NCBI RefSeq assembly: GCF_027924145.1
Contig: NZ_BRVP01000004.1
Span: forward strand, 62,001 to 126,000
DNA from: Neptunitalea chrysea
GTDB lineage: Bacteria > Bacteroidota > Bacteroidia > Flavobacteriales > Flavobacteriaceae
DNA length: 64,000 nucleotides
Reading direction: 5' to 3'
The translations under genes and the position numbers were made by a program. The notes beneath the pieces were generated by a model. The model searched no databases, had not been told where the DNA came from, and worked only from the letters and a program-made list of their open reading frames with translations. Position 1 is the stretch's first letter. Every line of letters starts with the position of its first letter. Below, piece by piece: positions 43,238 through 57,833 of the stretch.

Positions 43238-43591
43238 TTATGCGTCTCTAAGGTTTGTATATTCTAGTTTCAGAGCGTCGTACTCTGCTTGCAAAGTGGT
43301 GGTATCTTCGCCAAGTTCAGTTGTGAAGGTGATTTCAAAATAACGCTTCTTTAGCTCTTTACGACGGTATTCAAGAGAATCCCGATCGGTAGGATCAGCT
43401 TCTGGAAACGTTGGGTTTTCACTCTCCAATTCAGTTTTAGTTAATCCCAAATACTTGTTAGGATCATCCTGAATTACCTTTTTGATAAACTCTTCTTTTG
43501 TAGATAAGTTATCAGTAGAAGGCAGCTCGTTGTAATATCCTTTTACAACATCATTCTCTAAGTAAAAAAAATAAGTCCCTGTTGTTGCCAT
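43238..43591 (-). CDS. Hypothetical protein, possible tail-fibre assembly factor
   Basis: A 117-residue protein (starts MATTGTYFFYLENDVVKGYY) with a charged, probably coiled-coil C-terminal half (YRRKELKKRYFEITFTTELG, TLQAEYDALKLEYTNLRDA). It lies 2 bp upstream of the tail-fibre gene and 7 bp after the preceding structural gene. Size, position and coiled coil suggest a fibre chaperone or small virion protein; no motif proves it. Confidence 0.6.
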   Translation of the reverse strand: MATTGTYFFYLENDVVKGYYNELPSTDNLSTKEEFIKKVIQDDPNKYLGLTKTELESENPTFPEADPTDRDSLEYRRKELKKRYFEITFTTELGEDTTTLQAEYDALKLEYTNLRDA

Positions 43592-43598
43592 AGCGCTC

Positions 43599-44477
43599 TT
43601 AGTTTTTAATCCAAATAGCCAGCCAGTTCACTTTAGGAGCTTGGCGGTGTTCAGAGTTGTTTGCGAAAATCTTTACTTTATCATCGGCATAGTTAATAGC
43701 CCACTTACACCACAGGGTGTCATCTTGGTTTACTTCACCATCAAAATACACCTCGGCTAAGGATGGAATAAACCCGGCCAAATTTGTCACGCTATATCCG
43801 GATGGTGGAAAAATGTAAGCGCAATTATAATCCATGTCATTTTGCAATTGACCTTGAGATAGTGTTGTCATCACTATAGAACCTCTGGTTACTTTCAAAC
43901 TTTGAAAAGGTTTGTTCTGTATGTAGGCATCAGATTGCGGACTGGTATTGTTCCAATCTGATTTCACATTTACTTCAGCGCCCTCTTCCAAGGTGGCTAT
44001 AAAATTAACCATTGCCTGAGTTAAGGCGATATATCCCTCTGTAGGTACAAATTGCTGACTGGCAAAAGCCGTAAGCTCTTTTAAAGTTTTCAAACGTATC
44101 AAGTCCGAAAAGGGAAAGGTCTCAACGCCTCCTGTACCAAAGCGTAAATACCTGGTCTTATAAACTGGTAACACATCTTGGTTACTATCTTCATCTAAGT
44201 CTGCATCATAAGCAGCCGTAACTTCTGTGTCTATAAGTGTAACCTGGTCCTGGTATGCTCCGCTTTCAAATAGTAATATTTCACCATTGTAAGAAACATA
44301 CCCTTTGCTGTAGGTTCCGTTGCCATCATTCACCAGTCCGGTTAAAATGGTTTTGTCTCCAGATTCTTTTGCTATGGCTTCCAATGGTTCACGCCATGCT
44401 TGCTGAATGAAACGCCATGTTTCATTGGTAGCCGGAAATCCGGTAGCTGATATGATTAATTGTTTACCTGAACCCAT
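43599..44477 (-). CDS. Tail-tip or fibre-connecting virion protein
   Basis: A 292-residue protein without signal or membrane segments, beta-rich and starting MGSGKQLIISATGFPATNET. TRYLRFGTGGVETFPFSDLI and a C-terminal NWLAIWIKN are the clearest features. It lies between the baseplate genes and the fibre gene and overlaps the end of the preceding gene by 22 bp. A baseplate-to-fibre connector is the likely role by position only. Confidence 0.6.
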   Translation of the reverse strand: MGSGKQLIISATGFPATNETWRFIQQAWREPLEAIAKESGDKTILTGLVNDGNGTYSKGYVSYNGEILLFESGAYQDQVTLIDTEVTAAYDADLDEDSNQDVLPVYKTRYLRFGTGGVETFPFSDLIRLKTLKELTAFASQQFVPTEGYIALTQAMVNFIATLEEGAEVNVKSDWNNTSPQSDAYIQNKPFQSLKVTRGSIVMTTLSQGQLQNDMDYNCAYIFPPSGYSVTNLAGFIPSLAEVYFDGEVNQDDTLWCKWAINYADDKVKIFANNSEHRQAPKVNWLAIWIKN

Positions 44478-44977
44478 AGTATGTTGTAATTTTTACTGTA
44501 TAGTTTATAATAATCTATTTCACCTCGCATTCGAGTTAATATAGCCGTTTCTGCAGTTTCCCCTTCTGGTTGTAATTGTGGAGGTACGCATACTGAAAAA
44601 TCAACGCCATCGCCCACAATATCATCCGGCTCGTAATAGTGAACCGGGTCATTATCTTCTGGCTCGTAATGATAGACCTCTCGGTTTTCCAACGGCTCAT
44701 AGAAATACACCGGTTGTTTAAACTCGGTGTTAACAATTCTAATGCGCCTTTCAAGCGGATCAAACAAATCATTCAACATAGCCTCCATATACACAATTTG
44801 ACTATTGTGTTTTACTCGGTAAATGCTGTTGGCTCTAAAGTTTAGAAAGTCTAAATGCAACAATTCTAAAGGGCGCAACATTACCGATAAGAAAGCTTTA
44901 TTGTTAGGCTTTCTCATGGCCTGCATTAAAAAGAGCTTCACTAGCTCTAGCCAGTTTATGAGATATGCATTATTCAT
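44456..44977 (-). CDS. Baseplate-region protein in the tail protein I (Mu gp48) position
   Basis: A 173-residue protein, helical at the N-terminus (NAYLINWLELVKLFLMQAMR), with an odd central run of Tyr-Glu-Pro repeats (VYFYEPLE, VYHYEPED, VHYYEPDD) spaced about ten residues apart. It directly follows the baseplate J-like gene (8-bp overlap). In P2 and Mu the next gene after J encodes tail protein I/gp48; assignment here rests on order, not motif. Confidence 0.55.
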   Translation of the reverse strand: MNNAYLINWLELVKLFLMQAMRKPNNKAFLSVMLRPLELLHLDFLNFRANSIYRVKHNSQIVYMEAMLNDLFDPLERRIRIVNTEFKQPVYFYEPLENREVYHYEPEDNDPVHYYEPDDIVGDGVDFSVCVPPQLQPEGETAETAILTRMRGEIDYYKLYSKNYNILWVQVNN

Positions 44978-45866
44978 CCGTTAGCTTCCAAGAGATTAAT
45001 AAATCATCCATTTTAAAATAACCTGAGTCGGCCACTCTAAAAACATTAATAGCTCCTACATTCGCTATTCCTTCCTGATCATAACTATAGCCACCATATT
45101 TACTTGCTGCTGAAGTAATGTTGGCAGTTAAAACGCCTTCTATATCTTCCAATGCGCGTTCGAGTTTTCGAGTGCTGATGGTTCCGTTAAATTCAAGATC
45201 CTGCAAAAAAGCATCAATAGCATCTTGTACAGGAGTATCCGCTGTTCCGTCCAATCTTTGACCTTGTGGATTCAACACTAACGGATCATAATAACAGTCA
45301 AGGCGAAGGCGTAATAAATCGGCTGTTCCTGTGGTAATGGTGATTTGAGTACCTGCATCAACTACTTTGTTAAGCATGTAGCTTTTCAAGGCCGTAAAGT
45401 TTGGTTCCTGGATAGGCGCTAAACTTTCCCCGTCCATCGTAGCCACTTTTAATCTCAAAATTCCATAACCTGCAGCACTGATCAGTTTCACAGCAGCAGC
45501 TTGTTTTACAATCTTAGCAGCTGCTATTTGTTCATCGGTTAGGTTGTCTGTTATAAACTGATCCGTTCCATCCGTAACCGGAACACCAAGCATAAAGCCC
45601 AGCGCTTTATTTCTATACCAGTCGCGGGTGTGCGGTTTTTGCTCGGCCATTAAAGCAGTGATCTCAGTTTTAAAAGCATCCCACAATTGCTCAATGGTAG
45701 TAATGGAAAAGGCTACCACATCAAAAACCAAATTTTCAAAGCTCACCAGGCTAAAGGTGTCCGTAAAACTTGCGCCTACCTCAAAACCATACATAGCGGC
45801 CAATACTTCACTATTCATGAAGCGTGTGGTTAGTATTGATTTTATTTCGTTGAGTGTTCTTGCCAT
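44970..45866 (-). CDS. Baseplate J-like protein (Mu gp47 type)
   Basis: A 298-residue protein beginning MARTLNEIKSILTTRFMNSE. It resembles the wedge protein J/gp47: N-terminal helical region, a middle with ITITTGTADLLRLRLDCYYD and a C-terminal AIDAFLQDLEFNGTISTRKL, LERALEDIEGVLTANI, the conserved small beta-alpha fold that ends J-like proteins. Forms the baseplate wedge with the W-like product upstream. Moderately sure. Confidence 0.7.
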   Translation of the reverse strand: MARTLNEIKSILTTRFMNSEVLAAMYGFEVGASFTDTFSLVSFENLVFDVVAFSITTIEQLWDAFKTEITALMAEQKPHTRDWYRNKALGFMLGVPVTDGTDQFITDNLTDEQIAAAKIVKQAAAVKLISAAGYGILRLKVATMDGESLAPIQEPNFTALKSYMLNKVVDAGTQITITTGTADLLRLRLDCYYDPLVLNPQGQRLDGTADTPVQDAIDAFLQDLEFNGTISTRKLERALEDIEGVLTANITSAASKYGGYSYDQEGIANVGAINVFRVADSGYFKMDDLLISWKLTDE

Positions 45867-45869
45867 TTT

Positions 45870-46154
45870 TTATTGTATTGGGAAAACTTGTGGTAACATA
45901 TAATCAAGAGCGCTTAGCTCTGGTTGCTCGGTAGTTGCTGTGGCTATTTTTTGTTTTTTCTTCTTGAAATATTTTGCCACATCTTTGTTTTCAAAATCCG
46001 TATTGTCTGCATCGTTTATTTGCATACCAGGATTTAAAACCTCGGTTAATGAAATGCCATTTTTGATGGCTAATTGCATAGCTTGTTCAACACTACCATG
46101 CATTTCAATTGCCAAGTCTAATACCGATTGATTATTTATTACCGTTTTTCCCAT
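45870..46154 (-). CDS. LysM-like small tail protein (tail protein X type)
   Basis: A 94-residue protein whose N-terminal half reads like a LysM motif: NNQSVLDLAIEMHGSVEQAM, QLAIKNGISLTEVLNPGMQI. Phage P2 X and similar small tail proteins carry one such motif. The C-terminal half is charged and flexible. It overlaps the upstream gene by 16 bp. Confidence 0.65.
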   Translation of the reverse strand: MGKTVINNQSVLDLAIEMHGSVEQAMQLAIKNGISLTEVLNPGMQINDADNTDFENKDVAKYFKKKKQKIATATTEQPELSALDYMLPQVFPIQ

Positions 46155-46510
46155 GTTGCTAATTCTTCTTTCAGCTCTTTAACCACCTTCTTTAATGATC
46201 GGTTTTCCTCTGTTAAGGTTTTGTTTCGGTTGGTTAGAAGTTTTATCTCATCTTCCAACATTTTCACTTTACGATCAAACACTTCAGAAAGCTGTGCATA
46301 CTTCGTTTCATACCTGCCTCCAAGATCATCGAGCATAACCTTATAATAGTTAGCTAACTTAATCTCATTATCAATCTCAGTACTTTCAGCGTTTTCCTGT
46401 TCTTGCTTTGTTTGAGCTTCTTGTCTTTTTTTATTGAACAACCAAGTAAAAAAAGCGCCTAATCCGGTTCCAAGTCCGCCTGTAAGTCCGGCTAATAATT
46501 CAGGATTCAT
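46139..46510 (-). CDS. Membrane-anchored coiled-coil phage protein
   Basis: A 123-residue protein with an N-terminal glycine-rich membrane helix (LLAGLTGGLGTGLGAFFTWL) followed by a basic stop (NKKRQE) and a long coiled coil (KVKMLEDEIKLLTNRNKTLT, ENRSLKKVVKELKEELATW). No recognised family. One membrane helix plus cytosolic coiled coil could mean a holin-like or superinfection protein; it sits within the baseplate genes, where Mu-like phages of Bacteroidota often carry such small proteins. Confidence 0.6.
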   Translation of the reverse strand: MNPELLAGLTGGLGTGLGAFFTWLFNKKRQEAQTKQEQENAESTEIDNEIKLANYYKVMLDDLGGRYETKYAQLSEVFDRKVKMLEDEIKLLTNRNKTLTEENRSLKKVVKELKEELATWEKR

Positions 46511-46781
46511 TTATGTTGGTTTTTAGTTGTTGCTTTATCGTTTCATAATCAATGTTGTCCTTTGCTAAATGCACCCGAACGCGTTGTTCTATATCGAACC
46601 GTGGAGCTCCTGTTTTTTTCAATTGTACCAAGTTGGGACCGAGCGTTGGCGAAAACTTTTGAGCTCCTTGACTCAACTGTAATATCAAAGCCACTTCTTG
46701 CATTTGTGTGTTGCCAATTACAATACCTCCGTTGCTGGCTTGTAAATCGTTATCATCATTTAGCAATATTCCCTTTCTCAT
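46500..46781 (-). CDS. GpW/gp25-like baseplate protein (Mu gp46 position)
   Basis: A 93-residue protein: ILLNDDNDLQASNGGIVIGN, QEVALILQLSQGAQKFSPTL, GPNLVQLKKTGAPRFDIEQR. The pattern and size resemble gp46/gp25-like wedge proteins, and it precedes the J-like gene. Overlaps the next gene by 11 bp. Confidence 0.65.
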   Translation of the reverse strand: MRKGILLNDDNDLQASNGGIVIGNTQMQEVALILQLSQGAQKFSPTLGPNLVQLKKTGAPRFDIEQRVRVHLAKDNIDYETIKQQLKTNINES

Positions 46782-46996
46782 TACTCTTGAATTGTTCCTG
46801 TTCCAGTTACAGCTCCTCCAGTTGCACTGGTTCCAGTAACTGCCGTTTGTCTACCAATAACAAATTGAGCTACTCCGTTTGCTAACTCATCGGCCAAGTG
46901 TTGCCGAGCTTCAGCAACATTTATGTTTGGATCATCAGAACCAAACTCAAAGGCTGCCTTAAATTTTGCTGCTAACTGTTCTTCTGTTATTGCCAT
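46781..46996 (-). CDS. Small hypothetical phage protein
   Basis: A 71-residue protein with a helical N-terminus (TEEQLAAKFKAAFEFGSDDP, VAEARQHLADELANGVAQFV) and a Gly/Thr-rich flexible end. Its stop shares one base with the next start and it follows the V-like gene directly. No family recognised. Confidence 0.6.
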   Translation of the reverse strand: MAITEEQLAAKFKAAFEFGSDDPNINVAEARQHLADELANGVAQFVIGRQTAVTGTSATGGAVTGTGTIQE

Positions 46997-47470
46997 TTAA
47001 CTACTTTTTAAAATGGTGTTTAAACGTTGTTTAATTGTTTCCATAGCTACTACATTAATGGTGTTACCATAAATCACAACTATCTTATTCAGTTCATCGA
47101 TCATGTCATTAAACACGGTTTTCAAATCCTCGTTACCGCTTTTAATAATCACACCAGATTCTTTCACGGTGAGTTCTGTGGTACCGGTTTTAAAATTCAA
47201 TTCCTCAAGCTCGGCTGCATCTAGCAAAAAAGCATTGGCAGGATTGTTTTCAATCAATCCAATAAGGCATAGCGTATTTACCTTTGGCTTTTTATATTCA
47301 GCACCTCGGCCAAGGTCTATATCATAATATTCAAGATCATCTGTCTGACCTTTGGCTACCATGGTTTTGTTTTCCCAGTCTACACTTACACAGGTGGCAT
47401 ACGCTGTTTGAATGGGCGTAAGTTCTTTAATACGCTGATTGATTAACTCTGTAAATGCTCCTAATCCCAT
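46997..47470 (-). CDS. Baseplate spike protein V-like (Mu gp45 type)
   Basis: A 157-residue protein with an N-terminal helix (FTELINQRIKELTP), an OB-fold-like beta region (AYATCVSVDWENKTMVAKGQ, NTLCLIGLIENNPANAFLLD), a short repetitive beta-helix-like stretch (TTELTVKESGVIIKSGNEDL) and a C-terminal helix. This matches the membrane-piercing spike V/gp45. It lies directly after the hub-like D gene, as in P2 and Mu. Confidence 0.7.
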   Translation of the reverse strand: MGLGAFTELINQRIKELTPIQTAYATCVSVDWENKTMVAKGQTDDLEYYDIDLGRGAEYKKPKVNTLCLIGLIENNPANAFLLDAAELEELNFKTGTTELTVKESGVIIKSGNEDLKTVFNDMIDELNKIVVIYGNTINVVAMETIKQRLNTILKSS

Positions 47471-48454
47471 TTAAATTTGTTCTCCTATGGTTATTTCTTG
47501 GCGAATTCCGCCACGGTCAAAACTTTTGTAAACTTTATCTATGTAATAGGTTCCTGAGCGATCATCATACAAACTACTTTCAATATTCGTTTTCATACCA
47601 TGATCTACAGAAGGCACACCAAAAGCGGTGAACTTTCCATCGAACCTGTCTTTTTTCATTTTTCGGTAGGCTACTAAACCTAAATCGCGTAGCCTTGCTT
47701 TATCGGAAATGTTGTAATACGTTAGCGTATGTTCATTACCAGTTGTATCGCCAATATTATCCACTGTAATTTTAGAGCCATTGGCCAAAGTGGATACACA
47801 CTTGATTTTTATAATAAGTTCATCGGCTCTTTTATAGTTCAAGTCATTGGAAACACAATTGCGCTCTAAGTGAAAATTCACTGTGTCATCGGTTGTATTA
47901 TCGGCGTAATACTTGCCAGATCTTACAGCACCATTCTGCCAATAAGTGTATAAATTGTACGTGCTTTTCAACTTCTCTAACACAGCGCCAACGGTTGTAT
48001 TAGCAAAACGAACCCCTCCAAGATCTACACCTTCCAAAGCATCAATTGTGTAACCAGGTATAATTTTCTTTAGCAATTCCTCGAGCGTAATTTTAGCTGC
48101 TGAAAAATTAACCGGTAATCGTTTTATCCGGAACATTTCATCTTCAAAATCAATCACGGTTGGTATGTCCGATGATACTGCAGTAACATATCCTATAAAC
48201 TCGGTTATGTTATTGCCATCATATCCAAACTTTACGGTGATTGCATCTCCGCGTTGAAATGCTTTTTGTGCGTTGTATTTAAACTTTCCACTTTTACCAA
48301 AGAACGAATAGTTACGAGGCATGGTTAAAGAACCTTTAGAGCTCATCTCTTTAAAAGTCTTTTCAAACTCAATAGCCGTAACTTTATACAATACTATTTC
48401 CTCTCTTCTGGAGTTGTCCGGAAATACTATTTCGCAGGTCATTGCATAGGCCAT
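47471..48454 (-). CDS. Tail hub protein, late-control-D/Mu gp44 type
   Basis: A 327-residue, beta-rich protein. ITVKFGYDGNNITEFIGYVT, LEELLKKIIPGYTIDALEGV and YNLYTYWQNGAVRSGKYY are typical of the gp27/gpD hub fold, which links the tail tube to the spike. Overlaps the preceding gene by 16 bp. Followed at once by the V-like spike gene, which supports the call. Confidence 0.7.
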   Translation of the reverse strand: MAYAMTCEIVFPDNSRREEIVLYKVTAIEFEKTFKEMSSKGSLTMPRNYSFFGKSGKFKYNAQKAFQRGDAITVKFGYDGNNITEFIGYVTAVSSDIPTVIDFEDEMFRIKRLPVNFSAAKITLEELLKKIIPGYTIDALEGVDLGGVRFANTTVGAVLEKLKSTYNLYTYWQNGAVRSGKYYADNTTDDTVNFHLERNCVSNDLNYKRADELIIKIKCVSTLANGSKITVDNIGDTTGNEHTLTYYNISDKARLRDLGLVAYRKMKKDRFDGKFTAFGVPSVDHGMKTNIESSLYDDRSGTYYIDKVYKSFDRGGIRQEITIGEQI

Positions 48455-49062
48455 TGTACTTGGTCTTTAGATTCGTCACTGTACATTTGAAACTGAAAAG
48501 CAATATTTCCATCTCCGCCCTGGATAAGATTGTGAGACCAATCTGCAATGGTAACGGAATCAACTTCTATCCAGTTAAAAGCCTCCCCTGAAATACGTAT
48601 GCTATCTGCCAATACTTCCCATTTCTTCAATTCTTTAAACTTCTCTGCAGCGGAGCTTTCCTGATCATTTAAACACAATCCTTTTACATCAATAACCCAA
48701 TCATCAAAAGAGAATATCTCTTTTACTGATCCGTTATTGCCTAGCAAATTGGTGCGCTCGATAATTTTACCTCTACGAAACGAAAACATCGTAGTAGCCG
48801 GTAAATAGTAATCTGGCATTCGTACAATTTCCATCTTTCCCAATGCTGTATAACGATTGTATCCATCTTGTTGAAACTTCACGGGTAATAAAATCGGCGT
48901 CCCCATCCATGAAGTCATTGAACGATCATAATACTCAGGTAATCTTACAATATCTGAATAGTTGAGCTCTGGTGATGATGGTGTATCATTAGGAATAGTA
49001 AACACAGGAGCTACCCCAAAAGCATCCAAAAATAAATCGCGTATGTTATAGCTAATTCCCAT
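48439..49062 (-). CDS. DUF6046-like phage tail protein
   Basis: A 207-residue protein starting MGISYNIRDLFLDAFGVAPV, with LPVKFQQDGYNRYTALGKME, WVIDVKGLCLNDQESSAAEK and a C-terminal DGNIAFQFQMYSDES. It resembles the DUF6046 family of Bacteroidota phages. It lies between the tape measure and hub genes, where Mu gp43 (a DNA circularisation/tail protein) sits, so a tail-distal adaptor is likely. Shares one base with the tape-measure gene. Confidence 0.65.
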   Translation of the reverse strand: MGISYNIRDLFLDAFGVAPVFTIPNDTPSSPELNYSDIVRLPEYYDRSMTSWMGTPILLPVKFQQDGYNRYTALGKMEIVRMPDYYLPATTMFSFRRGKIIERTNLLGNNGSVKEIFSFDDWVIDVKGLCLNDQESSAAEKFKELKKWEVLADSIRISGEAFNWIEVDSVTIADWSHNLIQGGDGNIAFQFQMYSDESKDQVQWPMQ

Positions 49063-51041
49063 TATCCTAGTTGTACTAATCCGTCTCTTAATCGATCGTT
49101 GATCATTCCTGTTATTTGCTCTGCTATCTCACGTACCTTTAACTTGTCGTTTACCGAGAAGTTATTAGTGACATTCAAAGTCATGTTTAAAGTTCTACCT
49201 CCTCCAGAACCACCTCCGCCTGAAATGGCTAATCCACTTCCAGAAGTTGCTCCGTTAGTAGTTCCTCCAGTTAAAGTATTATTAGCTGTTGGAGCTAAAG
49301 CATTATTGATGGATGGCTTTTTATCTAAATTTTCATCAGTGAATAATTCTCCAGAATCTTTTGCCGTTTCTGGTTTCCTTTCTTCTGTTAAACTTAGGCC
49401 TTCCCGCAGCTTTTGAATGTAAGCCTCACCAGTCCCGGCTAGTTTACCCAGCCCTGGTATTTTAGAGAGTAACCCCAATAGCTGCTGTACAGGCATTAAC
49501 AAGGCATCTAACAACACAAGACCTATCCGTTTTAACCCGGCGATAATTCCGCCATTTTCAAAGGCTTCTGTGATACTATCCCAGTGCCTTCTAAAACTTT
49601 GAATAATGTTAATGATCATGCCGAGCGGACCGAGTATAAAGCTGAGCGCTGCACCCCATTCATCATATTTCGCGATTACTGCAGTAATAATTCCTACCAG
49701 AGCTGCAATACCTAAAATGATTAAACCGATCGGGTTGGCATCCATGGCCACATTCAAAGCCCATTGTGCTGCAGTTTGTAACCATGTAGCATTTGAGAGC
49801 ATTTGTATTAATGGAATGGCACCTGCCAATATTTGAAATACTGGAGCCATCTCTTGAGCATAGATCCCAACGCTTCCAAATGTCTGACCTGCCCAGGTAC
49901 GTATATCAGAAAAGAAACCTTTTATACCTGCACCTGCAGCTTCTACAGATTTAAGTTTGCTAATATCTAAGTCCATAGTGGCTAATCCATCAATAAACTG
50001 TATACCGGCGTCTTCACCGGCACCTTTGAAAATATCTGCAATAATCTTTTGGCGAAGCTCAGGAGTTTTGTCCTGCATTTGCTGAGATATATATTGAATA
50101 GCTTCAATGGGTGTTTTTCCTGCCAAATCTTTTGGGCTAACTCCAATACCGGCCAATGCATCTTGCTGAGTTTTATCCATTTCTCGTAAAGCCAAATTGG
50201 CTTCTTTCAAAGAGTCAATTGCTTTATCAGAATAAATACCTTCTTTTCCGGCGCTTGCTATCAAGGCTATGGCTTGAGATTGTGTTAACCCTAGTTCCTT
50301 TATGAAAGGTTGGTATTCTTTCAACTGATCAATAAAATCTCCATTAGCATCAGCACCACGTTCAAATCCCTCCTCAATTAATGCTATGTTTTCTTGATAG
50401 GTACCGCCAACTTGTTTGGTCATAGCATTGGCAGCCCTAGCGATATCCAAAACATCTTCATCGTAAAGATCGGCAGCTCTTCTTGTTCTTGCTACAAAAT
50501 CATCTAAAGCATCACCAGACAGGTCAGTCATTCTTTCAATCGCTGCAGTTTGTGTAGCTACATCTACTGAGAAATTCAAACCATCTGAAGTTTTTTTAAT
50601 CATTTCATTTGTTTGATTGATTCCAGTAGCAATATCAGTCCATTTTTGTTGCTCCTTTGTAAACTTCTTAGCCTCTTCGGTTAAGTCGTTCATATCTTGT
50701 TCAGCACCTTTCAAGTCCTTACGTAAACGCCCAATTCGCTCTACTGCCTTTTCATATTCCTGGTTAGCTTTGGCAGCTTCTTTGCCCGGACTTGCATTTT
50801 TAGCAGCATGCGCTAAATCTTTGATTTCCTTTTCAGCATCTTTTACTTGAGCTGCTAAATCGGAGTAGTATTTTTTAGCTTTGGTAAGCGCTTCTTTGGT
50901 TTCCTTTTCATTGAATTGTACTGCTTCGGATGCCTCCTCAACATCCTTGGTCATATTAGAAACTGACTTTACCACATCTTTTACCGGTTTGGTAACGTGG
51001 TCTATAAATTCTAATATCCAACTTGTTGTGGTGTTACTCAT
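49062..51041 (-). CDS. Tail tape measure protein
   Basis: A 659-residue protein. The N-terminal 200 residues are coiled coil (VKDAEKEIKDLAHAAKNASP, QEYEKAVERIGRLRKDLKGA), then the TP901-type core (DLSGDALDDFVARTRRAADL, TQSQAIALIASAGKEGIYSD, LKEANLALREMDKTQQDALA), several hydrophobic helices (about 400-520) that would enter the host membrane, and a Gly/Ser-rich tail region. It sets tail length. The start overlaps the stop of the -1 frameshift reading frame (ATGA), so translation is coupled to the G/GT chaperone genes. Confidence 0.88.
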   Translation of the reverse strand: MSNTTTSWILEFIDHVTKPVKDVVKSVSNMTKDVEEASEAVQFNEKETKEALTKAKKYYSDLAAQVKDAEKEIKDLAHAAKNASPGKEAAKANQEYEKAVERIGRLRKDLKGAEQDMNDLTEEAKKFTKEQQKWTDIATGINQTNEMIKKTSDGLNFSVDVATQTAAIERMTDLSGDALDDFVARTRRAADLYDEDVLDIARAANAMTKQVGGTYQENIALIEEGFERGADANGDFIDQLKEYQPFIKELGLTQSQAIALIASAGKEGIYSDKAIDSLKEANLALREMDKTQQDALAGIGVSPKDLAGKTPIEAIQYISQQMQDKTPELRQKIIADIFKGAGEDAGIQFIDGLATMDLDISKLKSVEAAGAGIKGFFSDIRTWAGQTFGSVGIYAQEMAPVFQILAGAIPLIQMLSNATWLQTAAQWALNVAMDANPIGLIILGIAALVGIITAVIAKYDEWGAALSFILGPLGMIINIIQSFRRHWDSITEAFENGGIIAGLKRIGLVLLDALLMPVQQLLGLLSKIPGLGKLAGTGEAYIQKLREGLSLTEERKPETAKDSGELFTDENLDKKPSINNALAPTANNTLTGGTTNGATSGSGLAISGGGGSGGGRTLNMTLNVTNNFSVNDKLKVREIAEQITGMINDRLRDGLVQLG

Positions 51042-51304
51042 TTTTGTTTCTTAGGAGTTGCCTCATCAATGGCTTTAAATACTTCGTTTACTACTTCTTG
51101 CAATACGACTTTGAAATGGGTCGCCTGAGCTCGGTTGGTTACTTGTTGGTAATAGATCCAATCTTGAAAGCGTTGTGCCCATTCTTCATCACTGAGCTCT
51201 TTGGGATCGATATTATAATGAACGCGGATGATGGCATTAATTTCTTGAAGCCATGTATCCGCGTTGTTATCTTCCTCCGGGTTTAACCAAAACCCGTCTA
51301 CAAC
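51038..51304 (-). CDS. Tail assembly chaperone GT extension (-1 frame, no start codon)
   Basis: An open frame of 88 codons without a start codon runs from the slippery site to the tape-measure ATG. It translates VVDGFWLNPEEDNNADTWLQ, then EINAIIRVHYNIDPKELSDE and ends AIDEATPKKQK, TGA. It becomes the C-terminal extension of the 128-residue chaperone (51298-51684) by -1 ribosomal frameshifting, giving a product of about 215 residues, like gpGT of lambda and the equivalents in Mu and P2. The codon use and reading without stops argue that this is coding and not an empty gap. Not verified experimentally. Confidence 0.85.
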   Translation of the reverse strand, partial: VVDGFWLNPEEDNNADTWLQEINAIIRVHYNIDPKELSDEEWAQRFQDWIYYQQVTNRAQATHFKVVLQEVVNEVFKAIDEATPKKQK

Positions 51305-51310
51305 TTTTTT
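51278..51310 (-). promoter_or_regulatory. Programmed -1 ribosomal frameshift signal
   Basis: Slippery heptamer A-AAA-AAG at 51304-51310 in the zero frame, followed after 7 bases by a perfect hairpin CGGGTTT (51290-51296), loop TGGTT, AAACCCG (51278-51284). The zero-frame stop TAG lies between slip site and stem. Heptamer, spacer and stem match the standard -1 frameshift architecture. Confidence 0.85.
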
Positions 51311-51684
51311 AAGGTTCCTCGAGCTTCTTTTACAAGTTCGCCCACGTACTTGAGTAATTGGGTGTAAATAGCACCATCATACTCATAGGCATCTTTGTCA
51401 CCTTCCAATACACAACCCAATAAGAGTTTTTGTACTCTTCCCGGATCTTGTATTTTTTTGGTAGGTTGACCTTTATCGGTTGTTGCTTTTCCTTTTGACT
51501 CAGCATCGGCTATGGCTTCCATGACCGCTCTGGATGGTTTCTTTACCAAATAGACAAATACATAATCACCATCATCAGTGGTAATTTCTACTTCTCGTAG
51601 GTTGCGTTTCCCTCCAACTTTTGCAGCATGCGTTTGTATAGCCTCATCTCCAAAAGGTTTGTTTATTGTTGGTTTCTTTTCCAT
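51298..51684 (-). CDS. Tail assembly chaperone G (zero-frame product)
   Basis: A 128-residue protein: GDEAIQTHAAKVGGKRNLRE, a beta strand pair (DDGDYVFVYLVKKPS), a helix (AVMEAIADAES) and YTQLLKYVGELVKEARGTLKK at the end. It sits between tail tube and tape measure, as expected for the tail chaperone. Its last codons contain the slippery site, so most ribosomes should make this short form and a minority the GT fusion. Start ATG overlaps the tail-tube stop by one base. Confidence 0.75.
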   Translation of the reverse strand: MEKKPTINKPFGDEAIQTHAAKVGGKRNLREVEITTDDGDYVFVYLVKKPSRAVMEAIADAESKGKATTDKGQPTKKIQDPGRVQKLLLGCVLEGDKDAYEYDGAIYTQLLKYVGELVKEARGTLKKL

Positions 51685-52121
51685 TAGGCAGCGTTCCAGA
51701 TAATTTCAGAGGTTATCAAAGTATATTCATTAGAAATGGTTCCGTCTCCTTGAGAGATTGCTCTAGCATTACCTGTAAATTCACAAGCCATGATAATATC
51801 TTTAGTTATGGTTCCATCTTCTTTTTCATACATCACGATGATGTTGAAAGGAGCTATATCACTCAAAGATTTACCTAAAGGCAACGCAGCTTGAATAGCA
51901 TCTACCTCTTCTTTATATAAAGTGATTGATGCTGTAGCTTCATAATCAGTTTTAGATCTTCCTATAGGTTTAGATCCAACACCTCTTACATGCTCTTTGG
52001 TAGTATTATCATCATAATTAACGCCTGTAATTCCTTCTAAATCTCTACCCAATAAATTCACCGTTACAGAGTTCCAACCCTGCATGGTTCCAAATTTGTT
52101 TGTTACTGTAATATCTGGCAT
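51684..52121 (-). CDS. Tail tube protein
   Basis: A 145-residue beta-rich protein (TNKFGTMQGWNSVTVNLLGR, ATASITLYKEEVDAIQAALP, IMACEFTGNARAISQGDGTI). Size, position directly after the sheath gene and before the chaperone, and the beta pattern fit the contractile-tail inner tube. No strict motif exists, so the call is mainly from order. Confidence 0.72.
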   Translation of the reverse strand: MPDITVTNKFGTMQGWNSVTVNLLGRDLEGITGVNYDDNTTKEHVRGVGSKPIGRSKTDYEATASITLYKEEVDAIQAALPLGKSLSDIAPFNIIVMYEKEDGTITKDIIMACEFTGNARAISQGDGTISNEYTLITSEIIWNAA

Positions 52122-52124
52122 CTA

Positions 52125-53306
52125 TTAAATGTTATTGGTTAATCCTACGGCTACTTCAAACTCATGTACAATGCCATTGGCCACAATAGAAACTTTTACC
52201 GTTACCGGTGCTGTACTGTTTACTATTTGCTTGTTATCTATGGCTGTTTCGTAACCGCTTATTTCTCCATTGGCAACCATTTGATCAAGTTTTGTATCAA
52301 TCAAAGTTTTCCAATAGGCAGCTGTAGTAGCTGCTATATATCCGGTTTGCGGATCTTTCTTTACTACTCCTTTTACTCGAGGTAAAAGTGTGGTTCTAAT
52401 GATGCGCGCTGCTTTGTTCCAAACACGGTTGTTTTCAATAAATGCGAAGTCGCTTTCTTCATCCACACAGGTGTAACTGTTTTCAATGAAGTAACCAGGA
52501 TATTCCTGGTAAGCAGCAATAGCAATATAACCGTTGGTAATGATGGATTGTAACACGGCATTGTCTACTGTCTCAATATCGTTGCCATCACTTAAATAAG
52601 CATTCAACCATACAGCTTCGGTATCATCCGTTAACGGATAACTTTCATTGCCTCTATAAGCTAATGGTTTACTTTCGATGTCTACAGATCCTAAGTTTTC
52701 ATAAACTCCGCGAACCGCTAACATCCCCAGTGCTGCACCCAAAGCTGTGATGCCGTCATTGGCAGCACAACCTACCAATACCGAAGTATTAGGTGCATCT
52801 AAAGCGCGTAGATCTTCTGTATAATCGTCCAAGCCATTGGCACCAATCAAAGCGAAATCTAGTAAACGGTTTTGTGCTGCAAAGCCATTGATAATGGTTT
52901 GCTGTCCGTTAATAGTGGTTACTAAGTTTGGTGTTTCACTATCATAGGTCATGTAAATACCGTAACCTTTTACCTCTTTGTTTTGGCTGATGAATGCCTG
53001 AATATCTGCCACCACATCACTGTTGAACAAATACAACGTTGCTTCTGGTGCTAAACGGAAAAACTCCGTAATATCCTGGTGCAGCGTTAAACTGTTGTTG
53101 GCATCATAACTTTCATTGATGCCTAACTGTTCAGCATCGTATACTGCAGTAATAGCCACACCTTTTCCACCATTGTTCACAGCAGTTGCAACGGCGTCTG
53201 CAGGCATACCAATTACAATAAGGCCTACATGGTTGTCTGTACCATTGGCCAAACGTTGTAACCCGCCCTGTAGTTTTTCAATATTTACCCCGTCTAACTT
53301 TGCCAT
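52125..53306 (-). CDS. Contractile tail sheath protein, DUF2586-like
   Basis: A 393-residue protein beginning MAKLDGVNIEKLQGGLQRLA, with LIVIGMPADAVATAV, NSLTLHQDITEFFRLAPEAT, TSVLVGCAANDGITALGAAL and the C-terminal subdomain VNSTAPVTVKVSIVANGIVH. It resembles the DUF2586 sheath family of Bacteroidota phages. It shows the phage is a myovirus type. Three bases separate it from the tail-tube gene. Confidence 0.82.
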   Translation of the reverse strand: MAKLDGVNIEKLQGGLQRLANGTDNHVGLIVIGMPADAVATAVNNGGKGVAITAVYDAEQLGINESYDANNSLTLHQDITEFFRLAPEATLYLFNSDVVADIQAFISQNKEVKGYGIYMTYDSETPNLVTTINGQQTIINGFAAQNRLLDFALIGANGLDDYTEDLRALDAPNTSVLVGCAANDGITALGAALGMLAVRGVYENLGSVDIESKPLAYRGNESYPLTDDTEAVWLNAYLSDGNDIETVDNAVLQSIITNGYIAIAAYQEYPGYFIENSYTCVDEESDFAFIENNRVWNKAARIIRTTLLPRVKGVVKKDPQTGYIAATTAAYWKTLIDTKLDQMVANGEISGYETAIDNKQIVNSTAPVTVKVSIVANGIVHEFEVAVGLTNNI

Positions 53307-53308
53307 GT

Positions 53309-53677
53309 TTACTCGTTGGTATTAGTGGTGAATTCTTCTTTCTTTTTAGCGTAAGCAGCTGCTACTGTTTTACGATCATCAGCTTCAAAACCTAACGCCT
53401 CAAGCTCTTCAATAGTTGCAGCGTTTTCAATCAAACCAATAGCATCTACTGCAGACACTTTGGTTTTAGTTTCGTCTGCATTCGTATCCTCTTTTGTAGG
53501 CGTTTCGCGTTCAAAAGTGTATACAGTTCCTTTAGCACCTGCATGCAAGCCCGCATGGTTTTTATTGCGGAAAATGTTCCCATCTACCGTAGCAAACACT
53601 TCTTTATCATTTGGGTACTGTTCTAAAACTTTAGCGGCCTTTTCCTTGAGATCCGCTTTGGAATATGTTTTTTTCAT
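53309..53677 (-). CDS. Hypothetical phage protein in the Mu gp37/gp38 region
   Basis: A 122-residue soluble protein (KKTYSKADLKEKAAKVLEQY, a beta hairpin DKEVFATVDGNIF, then KNHAGLHAGAKGTVYTFER) with a Thr/Glu-rich linker and a small helical C-terminus (IGLIENAATIEELEALGF, resembling short helical-hairpin linkers). Its start overlaps the spanin stop by 4 bp. No family recognised. Confidence 0.6.
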   Translation of the reverse strand: MKKTYSKADLKEKAAKVLEQYPNDKEVFATVDGNIFRNKNHAGLHAGAKGTVYTFERETPTKEDTNADETKTKVSAVDAIGLIENAATIEELEALGFEADDRKTVAAAYAKKKEEFTTNTNE

Positions 53678-54168
53678 CCTCTTATGTTGTTAATGATTTT
53701 AAATATGAAATAGCCAACAATACAGGCTATGATAATTAGGAATAGTTTTCCCATTGTGAGGTATAGTTTTTGAAACCAGGATAGCTCCGCAGGAACGATC
53801 ACCGGCACTTCAATTTCTATCTTCTCTTTTTCATAGGTACTTTTCCATTGTGCAAAAAGCTCTTCCGCTTCCGCTTCACAGTCTACGTTTAAATTGCCCT
53901 GATCATCTAGGTTAACCTTTGGCTCTTTTAATTTGCGCCCTGGTTTACTTTCCGGATCTTTTAAAACAGGTTTACCATTTACACAATCAATATAGGCGCG
54001 GTAATAGCTGCTATCTTTCTCTACTTGAAAAACCGTATCGTGTACCGTTTCGGTAATGGTTTTGGTGATTTCCTTTTCAATGATCATTGGCTTTTTAGTT
54101 CCACAGCTTACCATCCATAAGACGGTAAACAAGAACAAAAACCATATAGCTATAACTCGCTTTTTCAT
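53674..54168 (-). CDS. Putative unimolecular spanin
   Basis: A 164-residue protein with a lipoprotein signal (lipobox LWMVSC, Cys22) and a second hydrophobic segment near the C-terminus (about 137-160, LYLTMGKLFLIIIACIVGYF) followed by a short positive tail. The linker (IIEKEITKTITETVHDTVFQ and later acidic/Lys-rich stretches) is long enough to span the periplasm. Outer-membrane lipid anchor plus inner-membrane helix in one chain is the layout of T1 gp11-type u-spanins, which fuse the membranes at lysis. It lies 3 bp after the endolysin gene. Layout is seen; function is inferred. Confidence 0.75.
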   Translation of the reverse strand: MKKRVIAIWFLFLFTVLWMVSCGTKKPMIIEKEITKTITETVHDTVFQVEKDSSYYRAYIDCVNGKPVLKDPESKPGRKLKEPKVNLDDQGNLNVDCEAEAEELFAQWKSTYEKEKIEIEVPVIVPAELSWFQKLYLTMGKLFLIIIACIVGYFIFKIINNIRG

Positions 54169-54171
54169 AGT

Positions 54172-54570
54172 TTAACGATAATCCCATCTTGCACGATATC
54201 CGCGGATATCGTAGTGAATAAATGTTTTATAGATACCTACACCTCCTTGCTTCATCTTACCAGTAGCAATTAAATGTTCAATAGCGCTTTTAACTTGCAA
54301 AGGAGACTTTCCTTGAGCTTTTATATCACCAGCCTTACCTTTTTTATGTTGGCTGTTTTTAGAGGTTTTATAACCTCTTGATGGAAGTACTACATCATTG
54401 TAATGTGGACTTCTATAACCGTTGGTAAGAGTGATTGGAACTCCTAAATAGTCTCTTAAAACTTGAAGGTTTTTTGCTAGCTCCTTTACATTCTGCAATA
54501 CACTATAAGGCATCACGGAACCATCTTTACATTCAAACTCGGACTTATTGAAATTCTCTGTTAATTGCAT
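54172..54570 (-). CDS. M15-family peptidase endolysin
   Basis: A 132-residue D-alanyl-D-alanine endopeptidase-type enzyme (Peptidase_M15_3). It has NGYRSPHYN, the zinc motif SQHKKGKAGD (His75, Asp82) and FIHYDIRGYRARW (His119, Asp121). It should cut the peptide part of murein at lysis. No signal peptide, so a holin or other exporter is needed; the single-helix protein at 46139-46510 is one candidate. Followed by the u-spanin gene. Confidence 0.88.
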   Translation of the reverse strand: MQLTENFNKSEFECKDGSVMPYSVLQNVKELAKNLQVLRDYLGVPITLTNGYRSPHYNDVVLPSRGYKTSKNSQHKKGKAGDIKAQGKSPLQVKSAIEHLIATGKMKQGGVGIYKTFIHYDIRGYRARWDYR

Positions 54571-54656
54571 CTGTGATTGTTTTATTCCCCCTTGAGGGAG
54601 CGGCCGAGGGCTCTACCTACAGCCGCCTGGCTAATTCAGAAATCTAGTTTATAACT

Positions 54657-55673
54657 CTATGCTGCTTTCCCCGAAATGATTGCAGCAGACCCTTCAATTC
54701 CATAGGCAACAATGATGTTGTACAATCTGAAGCCTATTGTGTTTTCTCTGTTTTCTGGATCTTCTGTATCGGCACGTGCAAAACGCTTGACAGTTCCGTT
54801 TGCTTTGGCAGTTGATCCTTTGTGGAATACTACAGAACTCTTACGTCCGGAAGTCTCAGAACCAAAAGGTATTTTTTCTAAGGTAGTATCATCGTACTCT
54901 GGAGTCGTTGAATCTTCATAGATGATGAATCCGTAGTAATTACGGCTAATAGCACCTTCTTTGTGGTTATGATATTGCGTGTAGAACTTTCTATCTTCAT
55001 CTAATAGATCAGAACAATGATCATCTGACAATACTAGAATGCGCCCTTTCTTGGAAATACCGGCCTTATTCATTTTGGCTTGTAAAGTTCTCAAGTCTTT
55101 ACTAGTCAATTTTAAGCGCCCGGTTCCATCATCTTCACCAGTGGTTTCTAATACAAAAAGGTTTTCCGTTTCATCAGCTGCTTGTGGCGCTAAACCATGC
55201 AACCCATATTCTGCAGTGGTATCCTCTAAAGTTTCACGGTGCTGCATTTGCACATCGTTTACTTTTTCATAAGGTAAGGCGTTTAGTTCGTCATCAGTCA
55301 CTATAGTGTTTTCGGTATCGAACTTGTGCAAAGCCACTACTACATGGCTGTCATCTCTTTGGTTGCTAACAATAGGATAATTGGTATTATCAATTAAGAC
55401 TTTAGGCGCTGCACCTCGTTTGGGAATTTTAATGGTATCGTTGTTTACCCAACTTTGTTTAGATCGTATTTCGCTTACCCACGTATGCTCATGGCGTAAT
55501 TGTTTGATCATTTCCCGCTCGGCTAATTCATTTTTAACCGGTAATGCTACCGTAGTAGCAGCTGCCATTGATACAGTGCCGCCTGAATGCGCGTCTCCTG
55601 TAAAGGCATAACTAGCACCTGTAGCAATGGCTACAATTGCAATAAATAATAGAACTCTTAAGAACTTTTTCAT
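54657..55673 (-). CDS. Major capsid protein with signal-like N-terminus
   Basis: A 338-residue protein. The body (VKNELAEREMIKQLRHEHTW, DTIKIPKRGAAPKVLIDNTN, TYDDTTLEKIPFG-like stretches, GFRLYNIIVAYGIEGSAAII) fits a HK97-fold capsid subunit of the Bacteroidota Mu-like type, and it directly follows the protease/scaffold gene. Oddly, residues 1-24 look like a Sec signal (MKKFLRVLLFIAIVAIATGA). A capsid subunit should not be exported, so this may be a delta-like segment removed by the prohead protease, or it may target assembly to the membrane. An internal Met about residue 36 could be an alternative start. Confidence 0.75.
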   Translation of the reverse strand: MKKFLRVLLFIAIVAIATGASYAFTGDAHSGGTVSMAAATTVALPVKNELAEREMIKQLRHEHTWVSEIRSKQSWVNNDTIKIPKRGAAPKVLIDNTNYPIVSNQRDDSHVVVALHKFDTENTIVTDDELNALPYEKVNDVQMQHRETLEDTTAEYGLHGLAPQAADETENLFVLETTGEDDGTGRLKLTSKDLRTLQAKMNKAGISKKGRILVLSDDHCSDLLDEDRKFYTQYHNHKEGAISRNYYGFIIYEDSTTPEYDDTTLEKIPFGSETSGRKSSVVFHKGSTAKANGTVKRFARADTEDPENRENTIGFRLYNIIVAYGIEGSAAIISGKAA

Positions 55674-55743
55674 CTGTTTTAAATTAAAGTTTAGTTTAAG
55701 TGGTTAGGCTGTTGTAAGATTTTGTTATATGTTTCTTAGCTTT

Positions 55744-56880
55744 TTAGTTACCGAAGTAAGCAGCTTCTAAGGCTTCCGCTTTCTCAGGATCATCTACCTT
55801 CATTTGTTCGTAAGCTTCCGGGTCTTTGCTGATGTAGTCATCCAACGTCCAATCTTTACGAGCTGCCTCAAGGTTTTTATCAGCTGGCTTTTTGGTTTTG
55901 TTGCTTAGTTTCTCTAAAGATTCAAGCCCATCAATCAACTCTTCAGTTGCTTTGTAATCGGCAGCGGCCAATTTCTCATACTGCGAAACCTGTGCTGCAG
56001 TAATCTTTTTGTCTTTTAAAGCACCGGCAACAAGTGTTTTGGCTTTGTCCTTTTTCTTGTCGTCGTCTTTTTGCTTTTTACTAGCCACAGCATCTACATG
56101 TTTAGCAGCATTCACCTTCATTTGGTTTTTAGCAGCTTCTATCTGTGCATCGGTGGCGTCTGCAGGCAATCCTAGCCATGCAATTAACTCCTCTCTGTTC
56201 ATATGATAATCTTCGTTTTTGTTTGAATTAGGTTTACGTAGCTCAGGAATATTAGGAGCTCCACAAGCGACTAATGCTTGTTTCATTTCGGCATTGATTT
56301 CTTCCTCTTCATCCAAAATGAAATCAATAAGCCCTTTTTCTTTGGCCTCGGTTGCGGTCATCCAGTAATCACCTTTTGCCCATAGTTCTTCAACTTCGTC
56401 TTCAGAAATACCCATCTTTTTGGCATAGGCCTTTTTGTAAGCAGTAGTAGTATTACGCAACATTTTAAGATCGCGCTCTACTTCATCTTCATTACCACCG
56501 GTCATAAGCATTGGCTTATGAATCATAAATTGGCTATTTAAATATGCGCTTGTGGGGAAACAAGCAGCGAGGTAAGTTCCGGCACTGGCACACAATGCAC
56601 CCACCGTAATTTGTACACTTTTAAAGCGCTTTAATTGGTTTACAATTTCATTAGCTTCAAACACACTACCGCCTTCTGTATTCAAATACAAATCGGCATG
56701 CGTATGTTTTTTTAGTAAATCATCTACCAAACGAGTAAATTCTTTACCGTTGTTTTCGTTCCAATTGCTAATTGCGCCTACAATGCGTAGGGAAGCTTTT
56801 CCGGCTTTACTTTCTGCAAATAGTTCTAGTTTTCTGCCTGCAGCGCCACTACCTATTATGAGTACTTTTCGACTTTTCAC
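55744..56880 (-). CDS. ClpP-type prohead protease fused to scaffold
   Basis: A 378-residue protein. Residues 1-200 are a ClpP-like serine protease: VGAISNWNENNGKEFTRLVD, LYLNTEGGSVFEANEIV, nucleophile Ser in GALCASAGTYLAAC and His in SQFMIHKPML. Residues about 225-378 are charged coiled coil (QIEAAKNQMKVNAAKHVDAV, KKQKDDDKKKDKAKTLVAGA), as in prohead scaffolds. A Met at about 226 (MNREELIAWLGLPADATDAQ) could start a nested scaffold protein. First gene of the minus-strand late block, 71 bp upstream of the capsid gene. Confidence 0.87.
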   Translation of the reverse strand: MKSRKVLIIGSGAAGRKLELFAESKAGKASLRIVGAISNWNENNGKEFTRLVDDLLKKHTHADLYLNTEGGSVFEANEIVNQLKRFKSVQITVGALCASAGTYLAACFPTSAYLNSQFMIHKPMLMTGGNEDEVERDLKMLRNTTTAYKKAYAKKMGISEDEVEELWAKGDYWMTATEAKEKGLIDFILDEEEEINAEMKQALVACGAPNIPELRKPNSNKNEDYHMNREELIAWLGLPADATDAQIEAAKNQMKVNAAKHVDAVASKKQKDDDKKKDKAKTLVAGALKDKKITAAQVSQYEKLAAADYKATEELIDGLESLEKLSNKTKKPADKNLEAARKDWTLDDYISKDPEAYEQMKVDDPEKAEALEAAYFGN

Positions 56881-57036: not shown

Positions 57037-57570
57037 ATGGCAAAAGATTCTGAAAGAAGTGTCGCCCGAATTCTATACATAGACCAGGGAAAAAGCAATA
57101 AGGAAATTGCAGAGAAACTTGGTGTACAAGAAAAAACGGTTGGCAACTGGGTTAAAAAATACGGTTGGAAAGAAGAGCGTGATGCTCGAGATAATAACGT
57201 AGATGCGCGTATTGAAAATATCAAGGCGGTAATAGATGATATTATTGCAGATAGAACAAGTGCTAGGTTAAAAATTAAGCAAGTTAAAATAGACTTAGAA
57301 CACCCAAGAACTCCAGAAGACGAGGCCAAAACATTACGAGATGAATTGAGCACTTTAAAAAAAGAAATTGTTGGCTACGATGATTCCATTAGCAAATGGA
57401 ATAAAACGCTTGACAACTTCAACAAAGAAAACAAGGTTTCTTTAGCCACGTATTTACATGTGATGGATGAGCTGTTTAAAGACATGCAAGCTCATAACCA
57501 GGACCTATATTTAAAAACGCTCGATTTTCAAGAGCAACACATTAGCAAAGTAAGCGTACAATTAGGATGA
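57037..57570 (+). CDS. Terminase small subunit
   Basis: A 177-residue protein with an N-terminal helix-turn-helix (RSVARILYIDQGKSNKEIAE, KLGVQEKTVGNWVKKYGW) and a central coiled coil (SARLKIKQVKIDLEHPRTPE to SLATYLHVMDELFKDM). This HTH-plus-coiled-coil layout, the gene's place two before the large subunit and the length fit a DNA-recognising small terminase (Mu gp27-like). Its stop overlaps the next start (ATGA). Confidence 0.78.
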   Translation: MAKDSERSVARILYIDQGKSNKEIAEKLGVQEKTVGNWVKKYGWKEERDARDNNVDARIENIKAVIDDIIADRTSARLKIKQVKIDLEHPRTPEDEAKTLRDELSTLKKEIVGYDDSISKWNKTLDNFNKENKVSLATYLHVMDELFKDMQAHNQDLYLKTLDFQEQHISKVSVQLG

Positions 57571-57833
57571 TACTAAAAAGACTCATAGGCCTTTTAATAC
57601 AAAAGGCACCGAAGGAACAATTCTATCTTGAATTAGGTTCATACTTTATAAGAAAGGGAACCGGCTACCAAGTTGGAGATGCTTTTGAATACAAACAACG
57701 TAGAACTGGCAAAGCCAAAACACTACGCATTCAAAACCTATTCTACAACTTTAAAGAAAACCGAATCACATACCGATTCGATAAGAAACCCATTTTAAAC
57801 AGCGAAGCAGCAGGAGTTGAAGAGAGAGGATAA
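57567..57833 (+). CDS. Small hypothetical protein between terminase genes
   Basis: An 88-residue basic protein (MILKRLIGLLIQKAPKEQFY, ELGSYFIRKGTGYQVGDAFE) that looks like a small SH3-like beta barrel: VGDAFEYKQRRTGKAKTLRI, NLFYNFKENRITYRF. No family recognised. It overlaps the large-terminase frame by 17 bp. Could be a terminase accessory. Confidence 0.6.
   Translation: MILKRLIGLLIQKAPKEQFYLELGSYFIRKGTGYQVGDAFEYKQRRTGKAKTLRIQNLFYNFKENRITYRFDKKPILNSEAAGVEERG

Follow-up and report, generated by a model that had tools for sequence, protein, structure and literature searches.

The present analysis concerns the junction between two tail genes in a stretch of 64,000 nucleotides from Neptunitalea chrysea (contig NZ_BRVP01000004.1, positions 62,001 to 126,000, read on the forward strand; hereafter, the window), which is part of contig C4 in a genome of 3.78 Mb. 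On the minus strand, the genes follow one another in the order tail sheath (DUF2586), tail tube, a protein of 128 amino acids (aa), a gap of 256 bp, tape measure and baseplate hub genes. The frame of the 128-aa protein (the 0 frame) ends ACC TTA AAA AAG TTG TAG, that is, in the residues GTLKKL*. At this end and in the gap that follows, the elements of a programmed -1 ribosomal frameshift can be recognised, and we consider it very probable that two tail assembly chaperone products are made here from a single start:

51298-51684, minus strand: predicted tail assembly chaperone, 0-frame product (G/E-like), 128 aa; assigned from its position between tube and tape measure, its fold and a profile match
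51304-51310, minus strand: slippery heptamer A_AAA_AAG in the phase of the 0 frame; assigned from the sequence
51297-51303, minus strand: spacer TTGTAGA, 7 nt, including the 0-frame stop TAG (51298-51300)
51278-51296, minus strand: presumed stimulatory hairpin, 7 bp with a loop of 5 nt
51038-51304, minus strand: start-less -1 frame extension (T/E'-like), 88 codons and TGA

The -1 frame is open on the minus strand from 51376 to 51038, the 88 codons being counted from the slip point; the predicted long product comprises 127 + 88 = 215 aa, and its extension contains the peptide VVDGFWLNPEEDNNADTWLQEINAIIR. There is no ATG, GTG or TTG in the overlap or in the first quarter of this frame, and its TGA (51038-51040) overlaps the ATG of the tape measure gene (51039-51041) as ATGA. 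A first-pass annotation had described most of this anatomy, and the coordinates of the in-frame heptamer and its 7-base spacer at the end of the chaperone gene agree with it to the base, as do the start-less 88-codon frame ending in ATGA with the tape measure and the empty 256-bp gap that gene calling leaves between two open reading frames (ORFs), at 51042-51297. The stem (arms CGGGTTT, 51290-51296, and AAACCCG, 51278-51284, around the loop TGGTT) does have 7 bp, but to call it GC-rich was generous, with four G-C pairs among the seven. The window has 78 ORFs that reach 90 aa, with seven in-frame copies of A_AAA_AAG among them; only the copy in the chaperone gene lies within 15 nt of a stop. 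When the bases of the 256-bp gap were shuffled, 51 of 20,000 sequences stayed open for 86 codons.

In the scenario that we propose, most ribosomes would read A_AAA_AAG in the 0 frame and terminate two codons further on, yielding the 128-aa chaperone. A minority, delayed by the hairpin 7 nt downstream, would slip back by one base at AAA AAG, where the lysine transfer RNAs (tRNAs) of the host, both with the anticodon UUU, would re-pair with AAA AAA; having skipped the stop, these ribosomes would add 88 residues. By analogy with lambda, the short product, in many copies, would cover the tape measure, and the rarer long one would recruit the tube protein. That the shift takes place in vivo, how often it does so, what the hairpin contributes and both assembly roles are what we infer; frameshifting at two chaperone genes of an HK97-like cluster amounted to 6% and 7% in E. 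coli reporters, according to the available portion of the report (PMC3711429).

Conservation of the slip site and the -1 frame in relatives

The chaperone itself is a poor probe for relatives: as a query it returned 20 pattern stretches in viral contigs, none of which was confirmed, and among 395 genomes it found one, its own. The tail tube was taken as the anchor because the chaperone is too divergent for this purpose. This anchor gave 10 and 80 loci in IMG/VR, with some contigs in common, and a further 49 in named genomes, and a search of the phylum with the tube profile found 13 of the 395 genomes, the window's own included; a search with the sheath gave 13 loci, eight of which were entered, and regions of five further genomes were added. 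The 138 tube-anchored entries, with the window, reduce to 116 distinct ones, which together with the five regions make 121 loci. In the final set are the 116 of these 121 that have a chaperone whose -1 frame runs on for 45 codons or more past the stop, this being the condition of entry; L128, L139 and L154 (contig ends), L137 (other gene order) and L166 (no -1 frame) were dropped for want of a pair. L011-L024 were not entered, as the same contigs recurred or lay under other entries, and L027, with no tube downstream, and the partial matches L009 and L010 also stand outside the set. The pairs of L058, L131, L132 and L161 were assigned by hand from the reading frames. Named sources include Flavobacterium, Winogradskyella, Chitinophaga, Hymenobacter, Apibacter, Marinilabilia, Prevotella, Xylanibacter and Alistipes as well as many metagenome-assembled genomes. 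As a separate observation, tube homologues also occur in genomes of the window's own family (L003/L166, L221-L225); there, the next gene ends in KPVKVEIL* and lacks a -1 frame, and no tape measure was recognised in the retrieved stretch. These loci may belong to a tail-like particle rather than to a phage.

A canonical heptamer in the phase of the 0 frame is present in the overlap of 105 of the 116 distinct loci, the window included, or 80 of 89 clusters at 80% identity. The heptamer is A_AAA_AAG in 45 loci, A_AAA_AAC in 41, A_AAA_AAA in nine, T_TTT_TTA in four and A_AAT_TTT in three, with T_TTT_TTC, T_TTT_TTG and A_AAA_AAT in one locus each. In 89 of the 105 the offset is the same, the stop coming two codons after the site. 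Counted by clusters, 74 of 89 (window included) have a canonical heptamer at -13/-10 from the end of the stop, where about one would be expected from the frequency of such heptamers elsewhere in the same genes (67 in 10,305 codon positions). Past the stop, the median extension over the 116 loci is 72 codons in the -1 frame, which was selected for at least 45, vs 8 in the +1 frame, which likewise reaches at least 45 codons in 10 loci. The ratio of nonsynonymous to synonymous substitution rates (dN/dS) of the -1 frame has a median of 0.25 over 88 pairs of moderate divergence, not mutually independent, and from these sequence comparisons the -1 frame evolves as a protein under purifying selection. 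The idea that a single gene has decayed, or been mis-sequenced, and was split by a one-base change explains the split frame itself and nothing more; it is refuted by the conservation of the split, which recurs near the same codon in more than 100 distinct loci with a dN/dS of the second frame well below 1, and we give it practically no credence.

Slippage of the RNA polymerase on the A6 run, by which an extra A in some transcripts would bring the -1 frame into line, has a certain appeal given that the site is a run of six A's and that the dnaX products of Thermus arise in this way, as the accessible part of a review has it (PMC5009743). It would not, however, require the single phase and the single distance to the stop that 89 of the 105 sites keep; a hairpin 5-10 nt downstream is conserved; three loci have A_AAT_TTT, with no long run of a single base, and at the 11 junctions that lack a heptamer no out-of-phase A6 run was seen, only in-phase heptamers having been counted. 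We regard polymerase slippage as highly improbable here.

A further challenge comes from the side branches, since the -1 frame could be a separate gene, with translation either beginning at a start within it or resuming once ribosomes have stopped at the TAG. In L078, L081 and L161, an ATG (at 4833, 4820 and 4363, respectively) overlaps the stop as ATGA in exactly the -1 frame, and in L077, L079, L147, L160, L162 and L164 there is neither a canonical heptamer nor an ATG, GTG or TTG in the overlap or the first quarter. The extension can thus work as a separately translated half, given that an ATG replaces the shift in three loci. In 53 of the 105 loci with a heptamer, the window among them, however, there is no ATG, GTG or TTG in this region at all, an ATG being found in only 8 of the 105, and a separate gene would leave an in-frame heptamer with no reason for being kept. 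As a general account of the junction, a separate gene has in our view only a very slim chance, and the frameshift remains the preferred reading.

Some of the remaining junctions without a canonical heptamer appear to carry shorter slip sites. L163, L164 and L167 end GAA AAG CTT TAR, and GAA AAG, of the A_AAG tetramer type, stands before the last sense codon also in L244, L246, L256, L258 and L277; in a further scan of 42 loci, GTA AAG was found in L271 and L278, GTA AAA in L262, and an AAG GAA form as well. By sequence, all four forms (GAA AAG, GTA AAG, AAG GAA and GTA AAA) would fit the tetramer slip class Z_ZZN, which has been studied in E. coli according to the portion of that work available (PMC4066793). 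In L079 (4650-4770), L238 (the same as L147), L241 (the same as L160), L242 (the same as L162) and L243, the 0 frame ends with GAR GAG or GAA CAG followed by CTT TAG, and in L077 with GTG GAG TTG TAA; in these six, the -1 frame is open with no recognisable heptamer or tetramer and no nearby start (L243 has a GTG at +38). Initiation at AUU or AUA in this subgroup was considered and rejected: ATT or ATA occurs in all eight frames, yet ATC is rare in the same frames, and the occurrence of the former is for this reason no start signal. In another family of the same order (L228, genome G277), the chaperone ends CTG GGG GAA GTT TAG; its -1 frame is open and the site is of the G_GGG_GAA type.

The downstream hairpin and the host lysine tRNAs

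The hairpin was assessed across the relatives by synonymous recoding of the -1 frame, in which the codons were drawn from the same gene and the first ones left unchanged, and by counting stems with 5 bp or more and a 5' arm starting 5-10 nt past the heptamer. Such a hairpin follows A_AAA_AAG in 26 of 38 clusters vs 13.4 (standard deviation 2.4) expected under recoding, whereas the counts behind A_AAA_AAC (7 of 27 vs 7.4 expected), A_AAA_AAA (1 of 7 vs 1.3) and the other heptamers (3 of 8 vs 2.5) do not differ from expectation in this way. The Stouffer z of the folding energy is -7.7 for the 38 A_AAA_AAG clusters and -2.1 for the 27 A_AAA_AAC clusters. Since it is kept beyond the needs of coding at A_AAA_AAG, unlike at A_AAA_AAC, the hairpin, as judged from sequence, genuinely belongs to the signal among the kin of the window and does not in the A_AAA_AAC type.

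Pairing was followed in two small groups that were chosen by eye for equal geometry. In the 14 sequences of the window's stem group, from which the A_AAT_TTT loci were excluded, 82.4% of the cells are paired, as against 65% at most in slid structures, and three of the seven pairs have changes on both sides. The second group (seven sequences, L112 being excluded for a stem that lies elsewhere) has a very different stem sequence with 87.5% of the cells paired. Of 500 shuffles, one attained the covariation score of the window's group, and 24 of 500 attained that of the second. Taken together, these comparisons bear out the main expectations of the first-pass annotation, which had asked whether relatives retain the heptamer, the stem and the -1 frame: the heptamer (105 of 116) and the frame (dN/dS 0.25) are kept, and the stem is kept within the A_AAA_AAG group with some compensating changes, but 12 of its 38 clusters have no such hairpin. 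The loss in relatives that it had named as counter-evidence is for the most part not seen, but does occur in side branches, namely the three loci with an ATG start and the small group with no slip site.

An upstream stimulator resembling a Shine-Dalgarno sequence does not stand out, being found at 10 of 80 sites vs 5.5 expected. In Bacteroidia, the ribosomes occlude the anti-Shine-Dalgarno sequence, as stated in the available part of the study (PMC8710568), and the lack of such an element fits the Bacteroidia for this reason. With regard to the tRNAs, 52 matches were found in the host genome, all read by ARAGORN; lysine is served by two genes, both with the anticodon UUU, and an anticodon pattern search agrees. 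In E. coli, too, lysine is served by a tRNA of the UUU type alone, and A_AAA_AAG is highly slippery under these conditions, again to go by the accessible part of the review (PMC5009743). The weakest of the host matches (G000:C4:131143-131217, minus strand; 31 bits), about 5 kb past the window, reads as tRNA-Asp with the anticodon ATC and is perhaps a prophage-borne or degenerate tRNA.

Could the slip signal of the chaperones in phages of Bacteroidota be tuned to the lysine tRNA genes of the hosts? Under this hypothesis, where AAG is read by tRNA-Lys(UUU) only, A_AAA_AAG would be used, often with a hairpin, and in hosts that possess tRNA-Lys(CUU) in addition, a tRNA expected to grip AAG firmly, A_AAA_AAC or A_AAA_AAA would be used, mostly with none. 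In 45 loci with a searchable host, the numbers with and without CUU are 3 and 17 for AAG, 17 and 1 for AAC, 4 and 2 for AAA, and 0 and 1 for AAT; for AAG vs AAC by CUU, the Fisher test gives p = 6e-7 on raw counts that ignore kinship and in which L064, L066 and L074, nearly one phage, are counted three times. The exceptions are L041, L074 and L232 (AAG with CUU) and L065 (AAC with no CUU), and, outside the test, L053 (AAC with no CUU). The test omits L034 and L038 (no searchable host genome), L036 and L075 (no lysine tRNA found), L053 (a 'Clostridia' bin), L050 (the second contig of L049), L044 and L045 (T_TTT_TTN) and the loci that lack a heptamer. The named sources of A_AAA_AAC are nearly all Bacteroidales, the exceptions being L034 (Flavobacteriaceae) and L053/L054 (the 'Clostridia' bin). 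Against tuning, the tree of tube, chaperone and extension holds a single independent AAG/AAC contrast, and of six supported pairs with unlike CUU status, 5.3 on average share the heptamer type and 0.7 show a change, in the predicted direction. Because the tree-aware test gives little support, we have to conclude that, as far as these data go, the raw association probably reflects mostly ancestry; tuning itself appears doubtful to us.

Fold of the proteins and type of tail

For family matches, 47 chaperones and 57 extensions from the 80 clusters with a heptamer were scanned. The family phrog_19076, with no assigned function, matches 40 of the 47 chaperones, and phrog_20303 ('minor tail protein') nine; at E 0.01, none of the 57 extensions has a match in PHROGs. 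The AlphaFold models of the window's proteins have mean confidences (pLDDT, predicted local distance difference test) of 85.6 for the chaperone and 87.1 for the extension, the latter mostly helical. A profile of the 47 chaperones finds 3FGX (RBSTP2171) in the PDB at E 4.5e-6. Alignment of the chaperone model with VIA-align against 996 chains gives 3FGX (Z 7.4), 5IR0 (6.1), YqbN (3KLU, 4.9), a prophage chaperone of B. subtilis, and the HK97 tail assembly chaperone 2OB9 (4.7), the next chain scoring 2.6; the aligned region spans 82 residues for 2OB9 and 84 for 3KLU, and identity among the four top matches is 13-19%. Because profile and fold agree on 3FGX and 2OB9 is present among the matches, the balance of this model-based evidence favours the view that the 0-frame protein has the same fold as solved tail chaperones. 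For the extension, the profile gave only AcrIE3 (E 0.04 and 0.07), which was taken as chance. A Foldseek search against viral models gave one match at 2e-4, to an uncharacterised protein, and named chaperones only at E 0.05 and above.

Several results weigh against the interpretation of this junction as a chaperone frameshift. Neither half matches a chaperone family in Pfam or PHROGs, nor does the first half in NCBIfam; Foldseek against the PDB found no solved structure at E 0.001; and the Z of the HK97 match is under 8, for which the tool warns that a common arrangement of structural elements may be responsible. Furthermore, 11 of the 116 loci have no canonical heptamer, and 75 of 500 shuffles of the window's stem group, and 273 of 500 of the second, had at least as many pairs with a double change, a count distinct from the covariation score. 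Finally, the signal had been called strong and simple at the outset; the anatomy of the heptamer is indeed exact, but the hairpin of the window (-9.8 kcal/mol) is only moderately stable and, because 7 of 200 dinucleotide shuffles fold as well, modest when taken alone.

The neighbourhood of the pair, which sits between the tail tube and tape measure genes, all on the same strand, is defined by three genes:

49062-51041, minus strand: tape measure protein (PF10145, phrog_28), its ATG overlapping the stop of the -1 frame
51684-52121, minus strand: tail tube protein (phrog_4579, tail protein; also phrog_9206, labelled head), the anchor for the relatives
52125-53306, minus strand: tail sheath protein (DUF2586), which points to a contractile tail

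The portal of the window is of the Mu type (PF06074), and the prophage seems to extend, as judged by eye, from about 38.8 kb to past the end of the window. These features point to a contractile-tail prophage as the carrier of the signal. The terminase, the portal and the head genes that follow (57037-63445, plus strand) diverge from the capsid and tail genes (43238-56880, minus strand), an arrangement unlike that of Mu. At 39870-43235 (minus strand) lies the gene for a tail fibre-like protein of 1121 aa; by eye, a segment of about 130-140 aa occurs in it twice in almost identical form, QRLDDLEEHQTTQD units are repeated and one part resembles a sialate esterase.

Comparison with known systems

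The frameshift in tail chaperone genes is a textbook phenomenon, reportedly described by Xu, Hendrix and Duda in 2004. The G/GT pair of lambda, a siphovirus, occupies the same place in the order of tail genes and uses the site G_GGA_AAG; the window differs in having A_AAA_AAG with a hairpin, the stop two codons on, and a contractile tail. P2 and Mu have contractile tails and the order sheath, tube, chaperone with a -1 extension, tape measure. Given the sheath (DUF2586) and the Mu-type portal, the window is better compared with P2 E/E' and Mu than with lambda G/GT, so that the first-pass description of a lambda/Mu-style chaperone in a phage of Bacteroidota holds for anatomy and conservation but should be shifted from lambda towards P2 and Mu, from which the window in turn differs in that its two halves have no sequence match to a known chaperone family. 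Frameshifting is 2-3 times higher in P2, and dnaX of E. coli has the same A_AAA_AAG and, as in the window's host, lysine tRNA of the UUU type only, both points being found in the accessible part of the review (PMC5009743), which also covers the tail chaperone frameshift as a textbook case. According to the available portion of another report, dnaX needs, in addition, an upstream element resembling a Shine-Dalgarno sequence (PMC5600365).

Among isolated phages, the Winogradskyella phage Peternella_1 (NC_062754) and the Flavobacterium phage FPSV-S1 (MK764442), both of the Winoviridae, have the same A_AAA_AAG and -1 frame. The tubes of Peternella_1 and FPSV-S1 are 65% and 31% identical, respectively, to that of the window, with the same order of tail genes, and their records have a gap of 240 and 185 bp between a hypothetical protein (the chaperone) and the tape measure. 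The extension matches 10 phage records, five of which have no annotation at all; none of the five annotated ones (from four phages, Peternella_1 appearing twice) annotates the -1 half. No mention of a frameshift was found in the accessible text of the Peternella isolation paper (PMC8776804), and no report of a chaperone frameshift in Bacteroidota in those parts of the open-access literature that could be searched; nor do the open-access titles and abstracts covered link the choice of site in phages to tRNA-Lys(CUU). PRFect is trained on SEA-PHAGES chaperones, and the available main text contains no word that begins with 'bacteroid' or 'flavobacter' (PMC10885494).

If correct, the present reading adds a conserved and clean chaperone frameshift across the tailed phages of Bacteroidota, whose hosts seldom use Shine-Dalgarno pairing. 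It would account for the unannotated gap before the tape measure in three genomes (256, 240 and 185 bp) and supply the half of the protein that is missing from PHROGs for all 57 extensions scanned, and the natural pairs of sites, A_AAA_AAG with a hairpin and A_AAA_AAC with none, together with hosts that differ in their lysine tRNA sets, would make the effect of tRNAs on frameshift signals testable. The mechanism has long been known from lambda and P2; the breadth of its distribution in Bacteroidota, the two types of signal and the tentative association with host tRNAs go beyond the routine.

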